Shown in pieces: positions 43,684 to 47,136 of a stretch of 64,000 nt of DNA. The stretch is from Antrihabitans stalagmiti. GTDB taxonomy: Bacteria > Actinomycetota > Actinomycetes > Mycobacteriales > Mycobacteriaceae. A model generated the notes under the pieces. The model was given only the letters and a program-made list of their open reading frames with translations. It was not told the DNA's origin and did not search any database. The stretch is from NCBI RefSeq assembly GCF_016482825.1, contig NZ_JAEMNV010000003.1, positions 62,001 to 126,000 of the forward strand. The letters run 5' to 3'. Numbering within the stretch: position 1 is the first letter of the stretch; each line of letters starts with the position of its first letter. A program made the position numbers and the translations under genes.

Positions 43684-44943
43684 TCACCGATTCCAATCGA
43701 CCCGCGCGGCCATGTCGAGCAGCCGCTGTCGTCGTCGGGGATCAGTTTCCCCTATCCATGCGATCCGCCCATAGATATGTGCGCGAAAATCGGTGTGGCC
43801 GTCGGTGTTCTGTTCATGCGCACCGGTCCGCGCGCAGTTGTGCAGCAGCGCCCGCAGCGCGTCGTACGCCTCGCGGGGCGCGCGTGGTTGCGAGTTGACG
43901 ACGAGGCCTGCAAGTAGTTGGCGCTGATGGCGTCGCCGGACCGACGTCTTACGTCGATTCACCGTGAACCCTTCGTCGTCGACCATGTGCGAGACCGCCC
44001 ACAGCAGTGCATCCACGTCGGTGGTCGCCGGACCCGAGAAAGCGAGGTCGTCGGCGTAGCGGGTGTAGGTGAGATCGTGCTTCGTTGCGTACCCGGCGAC
44101 GCGACGATCCAGATTGCGGGCGATCAGATTTGCGAGGCGAGGTGACGTGGGTGCGCCTTGAGCGAGGTGTGGCATCCGAAGCAGGCTGGCGTGTTGGTTG
44201 TCGATGCCGCGCAAAGCGGAAACAGCTGTCGCGGTCGTGCAGATGTGCGCGAGTACGTTCGCAATCGCGTAGTCGTAGCCGATCGCCCGATACACAGCGC
44301 GGACCCTGCCGACCCCGATGCTCGAGAAGAAGTTGCGCAGGTCGACGCGTACAACAACGTCCGATCCGGTATGAGGATCGGCGAACGATGCTGCACTGCA
44401 CTCTTTCTCGAATCCGTGGCACGCAGGGTGCGCAGGAACCGACGCGAGAACCTTCCGTGCGATGGTCCGCTGCATCTCGCGCAGCCTGGGCTTGGGTGCC
44501 TCGATCAGCCTGACCCCACTTGCCTTGGGACGCCGCAGGTACCGATAGTGCGTCAGTGGTTCGGTCGAGTTTCGTAGCCAACCGCCGCGGTCTGCGAACC
44601 AATCCAGTTCTGCAGGAGTCACATTCAACATGCTTGCGACAGACCGCAGGTCCGTGAGCTCCGGCACCCCGAACCGCAGTTCGTGCTGAGCAGGCTCGAC
44701 AAGATTGACAACTCGTTGCAGGACAGGCAGTTCCGCAAGAATCGAACGCAGGCTGTTGCGGCGATCGACGGGTTCGGTCGGCACCAATGCGATCACCCGT
44801 TGGGCAAGTTCCTCCGCGCGGACAGCGTTCACGAAGGATCCGAATACCTCTGCCAGGTCCGATCTTTGCCAGGTTCGGTCGGCCGCGTCGAACTCGTCGG
44901 CAAGGAGGTCGGCCAGCTGTGGCGGAACTGCGCGGCGAGTCAT
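43684..44943 (-). CDS. Retron-type reverse transcriptase
   Basis: A 419-aa protein. RT domains run from about residue 125: ASGVRLIEAPKPRLREMQR, DLRNFFSSI (first catalytic Asp, 201), QGAPTSPRLANLIARNLDRR, and the catalytic TRYADDLAFSG (YADD, 296-299). LAGLVVNSQPRAPREAYDALRALLH is close to the VTGLVxN region of retron RTs. YGRIAWIGETDPRRRQRLLDM resembles their thumb ends. About 120 extra N-terminal residues are of unknown type. A structured RNA lies 5 nt upstream of the ATG. Retrons make multicopy single-stranded DNA and usually act in phage defence. Alternatives are a DRT-type RT or a stray group II-like RT. Confidence 0.87.
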   Translation of the reverse strand: MTRRAVPPQLADLLADEFDAADRTWQRSDLAEVFGSFVNAVRAEELAQRVIALVPTEPVDRRNSLRSILAELPVLQRVVNLVEPAQHELRFGVPELTDLRSVASMLNVTPAELDWFADRGGWLRNSTEPLTHYRYLRRPKASGVRLIEAPKPRLREMQRTIARKVLASVPAHPACHGFEKECSAASFADPHTGSDVVVRVDLRNFFSSIGVGRVRAVYRAIGYDYAIANVLAHICTTATAVSALRGIDNQHASLLRMPHLAQGAPTSPRLANLIARNLDRRVAGYATKHDLTYTRYADDLAFSGPATTDVDALLWAVSHMVDDEGFTVNRRKTSVRRRHQRQLLAGLVVNSQPRAPREAYDALRALLHNCARTGAHEQNTDGHTDFRAHIYGRIAWIGETDPRRRQRLLDMAARVDWNR

Positions 44944-44948
44944 GACAT

Positions 44949-45110
44949 GTGAGGTGGAGTGGGGCGACCTGAATCCTTCGTCCTCGGCGCCGCGATGCGC
45001 GCGGAGCGCGCGGGCCGGCTTCGGACGCAGTGCCCAACTGATCTGTCATACCCAGGGGTTGCCCCTGAGACGGGTCCGATCGACCCACTCTCGCCCCACC
45101 TCCACCGCAC
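44949..45110 (-). ncRNA. Candidate retron msr-msd RNA
   Basis: On the minus strand, a 20-nt segment starting GTGCGGTGGAG (45110-45091) pairs with one ending CTCCACCTCAC (44967-44949), 18 pairs with one mismatch and one bulge. This is the a1/a2 stem expected of a retron RNA, closing a 162-nt region. Inside are a GGGTC-gatcg-GACCC hairpin and a CAGGGG-caa-CCCCTG hairpin (msr-like). Next comes a 49-nt hairpin at 45027-44979 with CGTCC/GGACG, GCCG/CGGC and GCGCGC/GCGCGC blocks (msd-like). The a2 end is 5 nt before the reverse transcriptase start. The branching G cannot be fixed from sequence. Confidence 0.72.
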
Positions 45111-45197
45111 AAACCCACCATGCCACAGGTCGCTGTAACGACCGCGACCTCCCGACGATCTAGGGGCGTCCGTCGCACACTTCGACAGAGGGATCCG

Positions 45198-46062: not shown

Positions 46063-47136
46063 ATGACCAGCATGACCGAAATTCACGCCGATGTCAGCCT
46101 CGCACTGTTCCTCGGCGTCGACACCCACCTCGACACCCACCACGCCGCATTGATCGATTCGCACGGCCGCAAGGTAAGCGATCACGAGTTCGGTACCGAC
46201 GCCGCCGGCTGCACCGAGTTGCTGGCCTGGGCCGCCCGCTACGGCGTCATCACCACAGCCGGTGTCGAAGGCACCGGCGGCTACGGCGCCGGCCTGACCC
46301 GGCACCTGCACCAGGCCGGGGTCACCGTTGTGGAGGTCGATCACCCCGACCGCCGGGCGCGTCGCCGCTACGGTAAATCCGACCCCCTCGATGCCTACGC
46401 CGCCGCCGCGGTGCAGTCGGGTCGGGCGACGACGATCCCGAAAGACCGTGACGGGGACGTCGAGTCAATTCGGTTGCTGCACAACGCCCGTGCCAGTGCA
46501 GTCAAGGCTCGTGCTGAGGCGATGACGCAGCTCAAATCCGTCATCGTCACCTGCCCGGACTCGTTGCGTACCCAGCTGCGCGCGCTGACCAAAGCGAAAC
46601 TGATCCGCACCTGCGCCGCGTTGCGGCCCGACCCGATCACCACCGGCGGTGTCCTGGCCGCCAACAAGACCACGCTGCGTCGGACCGCGAAACGCATCCT
46701 CGATCTCAGCGCCGAGATCAAAGAGCATGACCGCGATCTGAGGATGCTGACTCGTCGTGCGGCGCCGGATCTGCTGGCGTTGGTCGGTGTCGGCTTCGAA
46801 ACGGCGTCGCAGCTATTGGTCACTGTCGGTGAAAACCGCGACCGGATCCACGCCGAAACCAGCCTCGCGCGGTTGTGTGGTGTTGCCCCGTTGTCGGCAT
46901 CCTCGGGCAAAACCAAACGGCATCGGCTCAACCGCGGCGGGGACCGGCAAGGCAACCGGGCGCTGCACACCATCGTGCTCTGCCGTCTCAAACACGACCC
47001 TCGCACCAAGGCTTATGTCGAACGCAGAGCCGCGGAAAACAAGTCGGACAAGGAGATCATGCGCTGCCTCAAACGCTACGTCGCCCGCGAAATCTACCGA
47101 GTCCTCAACCCCAAAAACGGGGTTGACGAATCATAG
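46063..47136 (+). CDS. IS110 family transposase (recombinase)
   Basis: A 357-aa DEDD recombinase: GVDTHLDTHHAALID (first Asp), TAGVEGTGGYGAGL (Glu), RYGKSDPLDAYAAA (Asp pair), and the C-terminal Tnp20 part LLALVGVGFETASQLLVTVG, ARLCGVAPLSASSGKTKRHRLNRGGDRQGNRALH with the nucleophilic Ser segment. It is full length with no frameshift, so the element may be active. It moves the IS through an RNA-guided recombination. The ATG at 46063 follows AAGGGTTGACCG. Confidence 0.94.
   Translation: MTSMTEIHADVSLALFLGVDTHLDTHHAALIDSHGRKVSDHEFGTDAAGCTELLAWAARYGVITTAGVEGTGGYGAGLTRHLHQAGVTVVEVDHPDRRARRRYGKSDPLDAYAAAAVQSGRATTIPKDRDGDVESIRLLHNARASAVKARAEAMTQLKSVIVTCPDSLRTQLRALTKAKLIRTCAALRPDPITTGGVLAANKTTLRRTAKRILDLSAEIKEHDRDLRMLTRRAAPDLLALVGVGFETASQLLVTVGENRDRIHAETSLARLCGVAPLSASSGKTKRHRLNRGGDRQGNRALHTIVLCRLKHDPRTKAYVERRAAENKSDKEIMRCLKRYVAREIYRVLNPKNGVDES

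Follow-up and report, generated by a model that had tools for sequence, protein, structure and literature searches.

Retrons, in which a bacterial gene turns a partner RNA into a short DNA joined to RNA, are at present viewed mostly as toxin-guarding anti-phage systems. In the general plan given in the portions of PMC6868368 consulted here, reverse transcription is primed by the G that immediately follows a1, and the branch-site motif is usually TAGC (CAGA in Ec67, GAGC in Mx65); according to the same portions, 14 of 16 validated retrons carry NAxxH in region X of the reverse transcriptase (RT), between RT motifs 2 and 3, and in 14 of 16 region Y opens with VTG. Excerpts of that paper also place putative retrons in Actinobacteria, and ruber Chol-4 figures in a passage of PMC6498646, which may concern the retron family considered here; PMC12262390, PMC8934634 and PMC9252829 are cited as well, likewise from excerpts. 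The literature searched, which did not extend to the Mestre 2020 retron-type classification, turned up no publication that deals with a retron from this clade.

The locus described here lies in a window of 64,000 nt (the whole stretch of DNA that was analysed) and is very probably a genuine retron RNA/RT pair, with the following parts and one nearby mobile element:

43684–44943, minus strand: predicted retron RT, 419 aa, ORF intact
RT residues 8–71 (approximately): N-terminal 4-helix domain, followed by the RT fingers/palm and the thumb
RT residues 187–191: region X variant FADPH
RT residues 296–299: catalytic YADD
RT residues 344–346: region Y variant LAG
44949–45110, minus strand: whole msr-msd RNA (a1 to a2), 162 nt, its 3' end 5 nt ahead of the RT ATG at 44943
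45091–45110, minus strand: a1 arm of the closing stem, GTGCGGTGGAGGTGGGGCGA (45110–45091)
45090, minus strand: branching guanosine predicted from motif logic, in GAGA directly after a1
45072–45086, minus strand: msr hairpin 1, GGGTC-GATCG-GACCC, covarying
45051–45069, minus strand: msr hairpin 2, CTCAGGGG-CAA-CCCCTGGG, covarying
44980–45026, minus strand: long GC-rich msd hairpin closed by GTCC/GGAC, template of the predicted RT-DNA
44997–45011, minus strand: msd tip, in the window GCGCGC-TCC-GCGCGC (GCGCGCTCCGCGCGC), commonest family form GCACGCTNCGCGTGC; DNA form GCACGCTCCGCGTGC
44949–44967, minus strand: a2 arm of the closing stem, TCGCCCCACTCCACCTCAC (44967–44949)
45117–45127, minus strand: promoter-like element TGTGGCATGGT just upstream of a1, a putative promoter
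46063–47136: IS110-family transposase gene (NF033542, 173.7 bits)

An earlier note on this DNA had claimed an RT with YADD and LAGLVVN, a 162-nt region ending 5 nt before the RT start, a closing stem of 18 pairs, two small hairpins and a GC-rich one; all of these were found, at the positions listed above. The PADLOC search identified RT_other (573 bits, 1.4e-172) and RT_outgroup/retron (542 bits, 1.9e-163) as the best models for the window RT, both covering it nearly full length, followed by RT_XIII (318 bits) and RT_III-A (253 bits); the 25 best models listed are all RT models with retron-type names, and all 51 members of the family alignment, the window included, match the RT_other/RT_outgroup models. 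Among the NCBIfam profiles the retron St85 family scored best (177.2 bits, below its cut-off of 235, a shortfall that counts against the retron reading), with the group II maturase at 39 bits, also below cut-off. The sequence search of the PDB returned the Ec86, Ec67, Kva2 and Ec78 RTs as the top chains, and superposition of the AlphaFold (AF2) model (mean pLDDT 93.1) with VIA-align revealed the Ec86 RT as the closest structure (Z 26.5, rmsd 6.9, 302 residues), followed by Ec67 (Z 26.2, rmsd 8.0, 292 residues); other retron RTs gave Z 16–26, the best group II intron RT Z 18.4 (rmsd 3.0, 231 residues) and the DGR RT Z 17.4 (rmsd 8.4, 283 residues). The placement with retron RTs, for which the earlier note had proposed a check, was thus borne out by profile and by predicted fold, on which it rests, as the RT tree that was built comprises this family only; on these grounds the window protein is classified as a probable retron RT.

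Both aspartates of YADD, D298 and D299, are invariant in the 51 RT sequences. The FADPH of region X aligns with NATPH of Ec86 and H191 is invariant in the family, in which the general form is FAxPH, i.e. the N of NAxxH is replaced, as it is in two validated outliers in the part of PMC6868368 seen; the LAG of region Y aligns with VTG of Ec86 and G346 is invariant, and in the same part of that source two validated outliers also differ from VTG, by other changes. The FAxPH and LAG variants would count against the retron reading, and these precedents for them are only partial. Considered as a possible effector and folded alone, the N-terminal domain is predicted to form four helices (pLDDT 88.1). 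Its search with Foldseek gave a best E of 1.4, the best VIA-align match was to parts of EF-hand kinases (Z 5.3, rmsd 3.0, 65 residues), which is uninformative for a helical bundle, and the Pfam search of the N-terminal 96 aa returned no match.

The RNA at 45113–44948 folds at -89.8 kcal/mol, compared with -72.06 +/- 4.2 for 200 dinucleotide shuffles, none of which was as good (z -4.22); the predicted RT-DNA, when folded as DNA, does not stand out from its shuffles (z -0.91). The Rfam search of the window found nothing at the gathering threshold, and a match to RF03089 (cold-seep-1) in a lax search (20.3 bits, gathering 125.8, E 0.11) was taken as chance. The position of the priming G (G29 in the first row of the alignment) is conserved in at least 90% of 42 rows, in the context GAGA (GAGC in L046 and L047), and by its position at the inner end of a1 it would correspond to the conserved priming guanosine of retrons. 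The [T/G]GGCAYNNT element was found in 40 of 81 loci (90 nt searched, a count without chance control). The listed start of the Excalibur-domain ORF on the other side (45120, plus strand, divergent) overlaps the promoter-like element at 45117–45127, and the real start codon may therefore be internal to the listed ORF.

To the covariation of the a1/a2 stem and the hairpins, which the earlier note had suggested as a check, three lines of analysis were applied. The RNA alignment was made with MAFFT and comprises 42 rows (41 loci and the window) after removal of near-identical loci; 75 of the 80 fetched loci matched the hairpin pattern, the five that failed its first version being g30 loci with a swapped hairpin, and L067, L078 and L080 (extra msr hairpin), L075 and L113 were left out by hand. 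When pair counts were scored on the window's own fold, 79.8% of the cells were paired over the 42 rows, compared with 73.5% for shuffled and 34.6–54.1% for slid versions, the choice of fold being a bias in its favour relative to the slid ones. Double changes occur in 35 of 53 pairs (22.4 when shuffled, 42 rows) and in 162 cells (63.5 when shuffled; none of 500 shuffles as high). Helices 2 and 3 (msr hairpin 1) have 93.5% and 95.0% of cells paired, with pair 37–66 being GC in 19 and AU in 18 of the 42 rows; helix 4 (msr hairpin 2) has 100%, with double changes in 4 of 8 pairs, and in the g30 loci this hairpin is swapped to AGCGG..CCGCT; helices 6 and 7 (msd hairpin) have 96.4% and 98.4%. In the MAFFT alignment the paired cells of helix 1 (a1/a2) amount to just 71.6%, the register of its outer part being shifted there, and helix 5, at the foot of the window's msd stem, is poorly kept (55.1%). 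In L067, L078 and L080 (g6) an extra hairpin is inserted between msr hairpins 1 and 2.

Unaided, RNAalifold arrives at the inner part of the closing stem, the two msr hairpins and the msd hairpin, with double changes in 20 of 31 pairs. In the swap of a2 arms, for which 74 of the 81 loci were used, a1 pairs with its own a2 at -40.8 kcal/mol and with those of other loci at -29.6 (0 of 2000 permutations); the own a2 ranks first among all partners in 19 of 74 loci and within the top 5% in 39 of them, and the window's a1 pairs better with the a2 of eight other loci than with its own. The a1/a2 sequence varies freely while the pairing is kept. Pair counts, RNAalifold and the a2 swap all bear out the covariation, and the RT is accompanied, directly upstream, by an msr-msd RNA with an a1/a2 stem, msr hairpins and a long msd hairpin, as in retrons, where the msr has one to three hairpins.

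The covariance model, whose alignment contains the window as one of its 42 rows, finds a single copy in the window's own genome (166 bits) and the RNA in 95 of 301 family genomes, one copy each. An RT match is present in 98 of the 301, and these include all 95 RNA carriers; RT matches unaccompanied by the RNA are confined to G014, G218 and G259, where they are fragmentary or weak, and the RNA never occurs among the 301 unless an RT match is there too. The msr-msd RNA is thus strictly coupled to the RT. The retron is also dispensable, as the RT match is absent from 203 of the 301. The loci read with flanks are 80 and the window, 17 low-scoring or fragmentary matches having been left unfetched. 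In one genome (G286:C69:116450–127906) the RT match is truncated and the RNA match weak (50.5 bits); both are on the same strand, with about 10.5 kb separating them, as though by an insertion.

In an even draw of 396 genomes across the phylum the RNA was found in three, all of this family, under strict filters that may lose diverged forms. Applied to the window and to 18 loci taken from named records, with rough E-values, the RNA model reaches a distant planctomycete locus (L009, 1e-9), two Nocardioides loci (L004, L006), an acidobacterial one (L007), one in Winogradskya (L005) and one in Burkholderiales (L010, 0.0035); matches in L008, L011 and L015 are below significance, and L012 and L143 (Burkholderia pyrrocinia), both RT carriers, have none at E up to 1. 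Searches of viral contigs, sensitive to close relatives only, found no relative, and phage records gave 17 distant matches, none covering 80%.

The RTs are under purifying selection: dN/dS is 0.060–0.188 in all 16 hand-picked pairs of close relatives, the window having no relative near enough for such a pair. They are 33–62% identical to the window RT. The RT tree needs 15 genus changes, near the minimum of 13 (shuffled mean 60.8), so that descent has been mostly genus-true. The window RT groups with g26 and g2, apart from that of its genus-mate L070, which groups with g23 (containing Rhodococcus), and at least one of the two must have been transferred. The msd tip GCACGCTNCGCGTGC occurs in 60 of 81 loci, the window's form being peculiar to the window; a looser tip scan had hits in 81 of 81, with one match (TCAGGGGATCACCGCC) doubtful and three without the tip. 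Since the tip is nearly fixed despite the divergence of the RTs, and a1/a2 is free to vary, the tip sequence itself may be recognised, by the RT or by another protein. Some relatives' RTs look broken, possibly through draft errors: the match is in two pieces on one contig in G014, G050, G051, G229, G230, G251 and G268, split over two contigs in G277, and has two stops in G191.

Taken as a retron, the locus would work as follows. The putative promoter just upstream of a1 would transcribe the msr-msd RNA and the RT together, and the RNA would fold with a1 paired to a2, as the covariation indicates. Judging by retron biochemistry, the RT would use the 2'-OH of the conserved guanosine 45090 as its primer and copy the msd hairpin starting beside a2, the predicted product being a branched RNA-DNA (msDNA) of roughly 70–80 nt. 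Since no conserved effector was seen in the flanks examined, this product would most likely function as an RT-msDNA particle on its own, either together with a partner whose gene is elsewhere in the chromosome or through the activity of the N-terminal helical domain. That the locus has kept a cellular role, one in which the tip is read, is suggested by purifying selection, by descent mostly along genus lines and by the near fixity of the tip. We put forward the functional part of our reading tentatively and as short of probable; the role may be an unrecognised one in defence or a cellular one.

The search for an effector bears on the alternative of an anti-phage retron that relies on a lineage-specific effector, encoded just downstream of the RT in some genera, or on one encoded in trans, the window copy having lost its cis effector or never had one. 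We regard this as possible, if short of probable. The part of PMC12548924 seen presents retrons as systems of phage defence that have a toxic effector, and two candidates for a lineage-specific partner can be named: a 92-aa YrhK-like ORF (PF14145), membrane-like by eye, downstream of the RT in 6 of 22 g6 loci (L064, L067, L071, L073, L078, L084; 54–66 nt away in those printed), and a 140-aa ORF downstream of the RT in all eight fetched g11 loci (62–74 nt away in those printed). Against it, in 40 of 81 loci, the window with its Fe-ADH among them, the gene called next downstream is convergent with the RT, and a same-strand gene lies within 100 nt in just 24 of 81, from 11 clusters. No neighbour family within 3 kb occurs in more than 16 of the 81 loci, and neither this survey nor the Pfam search of the N-terminal 96 aa brought to light a general cis effector gene or a fused effector domain such as the numbered tripartite types have. 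Genes were called with a simple GC-frame caller and neighbours clustered at 50% coverage and E 1e-12, so that small, atypical or fast-changing genes may be missed. PADLOC gave just two marginal hits (7.1e-05 and 5.3e-04) among 10 neighbouring proteins of the window, and none beside the RT for the partner genes of type XIII and III-A retrons. The earlier note's description of a complete retron is correct for the RNA/RT pair, and an effector gene is what was not seen.

The window locus is flanked by the Fe-ADH, downstream of the RT, and by the Excalibur-domain protein. Homologs of the Fe-ADH in G002 and G003 lie in other contexts, so the insertion boundary cannot be read, and the Excalibur protein, tried as a marker of the empty site, gave short or weak matches only. 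The IS110 that the earlier note had placed next to the retron is a real gene, about 1 kb from the RNA and behind another ORF; no link to the retron was found, and it looks incidental. Elsewhere the retron is adjoined by DoxX, SDR and carboxypeptidase genes (the named record of Burkholderia pyrrocinia), by merA and a transposase (a Dietzia plasmid) or by HAD hydrolase and HTH genes (Tsukamurella). In L141 (Tsukamurella, labelled plasmid 5) polA and rpsA stand beside the retron, and the record looks like a chromosome piece.

A more specific version of a cellular role, which we consider unlikely, is that an effector-free, mostly vertical lineage was co-opted for DNA-damage tolerance or replication control, with a chromosomal DNA-binding or repair protein recognising the nearly invariant tip of the msDNA. 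The lead for it is the position beside repair polymerases. In 15 loci (L049, L055, L059, L060, L074, L075, L082, L083, L085, L087, L089, L093, L094, L098, L100) dnaE2, on the same strand, ends 196–811 nt before the RT start; these are 8/8 g11, 6/6 g18 and 1/1 g16 loci, all in one part of the RT tree, so the adjacency is largely one inherited event. In all six fetched g30 loci (L110, L115, L119, L122, L124, L125) polA lies upstream, at 227–2009 nt. The planctomycete MAG locus (L009:7468–13010) has lexA, imuA and dnaE2 after the RT, with a gene between imuA and dnaE2 that has no NCBIfam match and that we take to be imuB, and in L070 dnaE2 is 3.7 kb away on the opposite strand. NCBIfam supplied the names of dnaE2 in L009, L070 and L087 and of polA in L110, the others coming from clustering. 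The linkage was noticed post hoc and has no chance estimate, and it is a lead. SOS control was considered and found unsupported, with an SOS-box-like site (up to 2 mismatches, within 450 nt upstream) in just 5 of 96 loci, a set in which at least three loci occur twice.

It is highly improbable that the locus is instead a DRT-like system, in which the RNA is copied to a DNA that acts or codes by itself and no branched msDNA is made. DRT2-type systems likewise combine an RT with a structured RNA and lack a partner gene, and the DRT2 structure does match the fold of the window RT (Z 16.2, rmsd 8.1, 285 residues). On the profile side, the 177.2 bits of retron St85 stand against 35.4 for Drt2 (curated cut-off 390) and 25.0 for Drt3a (cut-off 200), both below the NCBIfam cut-offs for DRT2/DRT3 membership, and the names of the 25 best PADLOC models listed are of the retron type throughout; in addition, a closing stem formed by a1 and a2, together with a conserved G just past a1, follows the retron plan as set out in the portions of PMC6868368 consulted. 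Just as improbable is a degenerate remnant, with the RT gene and RNA drifting functionless in the window genome, as might be imagined from the seemingly broken copies in some relatives and from a context not common to the relatives examined, since the window ORF is intact with its YADD, its RNA scores fourth of 95 in a model whose alignment includes it, and dN/dS stays below 0.19 in 16 of 16 relative pairs.

What stands out in the retron proposed here is a lineage that is widely retained, solitary and nearly fixed in its msd tip. It is present in about a third of the sampled family genomes (95 to 98 of 301) and common in Rhodococcus relatives, and with its coupled RNA, no visible general cis effector and the nearly fixed tip it makes the role of effector-less retrons directly testable. 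It also offers actinobacterial RNA/RT pairs as possible DNA-writing parts for such hosts.

The known entries nearest to the window RT, and apparently its own family in a database, are RT_other (PDLC02949) and RT_outgroup (PDLC03740, 'retron') of PADLOC, and the entries seen are RT models only, without a type number, partner gene or RNA. The RT_outgroup model also matches 3 of 14 control genomes (E. coli, Bacteroides ihuae and Methanosarcina acetivorans), and so reaches other RTs. The retron had been called previously unassigned, which is right in that it has no numbered type and wrong in that RT_other and RT_outgroup/retron of PADLOC-DB 2023 match the RT nearly end-to-end; judged by these matches, the RT family is probably not new. 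Type XIII and type III-A retrons provide the next best RT profiles, with clearly lower scores (318 and 253 bits). The closest solved structure, by sequence (2.5e-33) as well as by fold (Z 26.5), is that of Retron-Eco1 (Ec86), which shares the general a1/a2, msr and msd plan set out in the part of PMC6868368 seen. It differs in that its RT is only 26–30% identical to the window RT, which carries the variants FAxPH and LAG and, at its N terminus, an additional helical domain, and in that Ec86 was solved with an effector (according to the title of the structure entry), none being seen at the window locus. A further likeness, of description and not of sequence, is to myxobacterial retrons, which belong to another phylum: in the portions of PMC6868368 consulted, Mx162, Sa163 and Mx65 (Retron-Mxa1, Sau1 and Mxa2) all have an extended N-terminus, like the window RT, and a branch site other than TAGC (CAGC in Mx162 and Sa163, GAGC in Mx65), and Mx162 and Sa163 are held to be vertically inherited.
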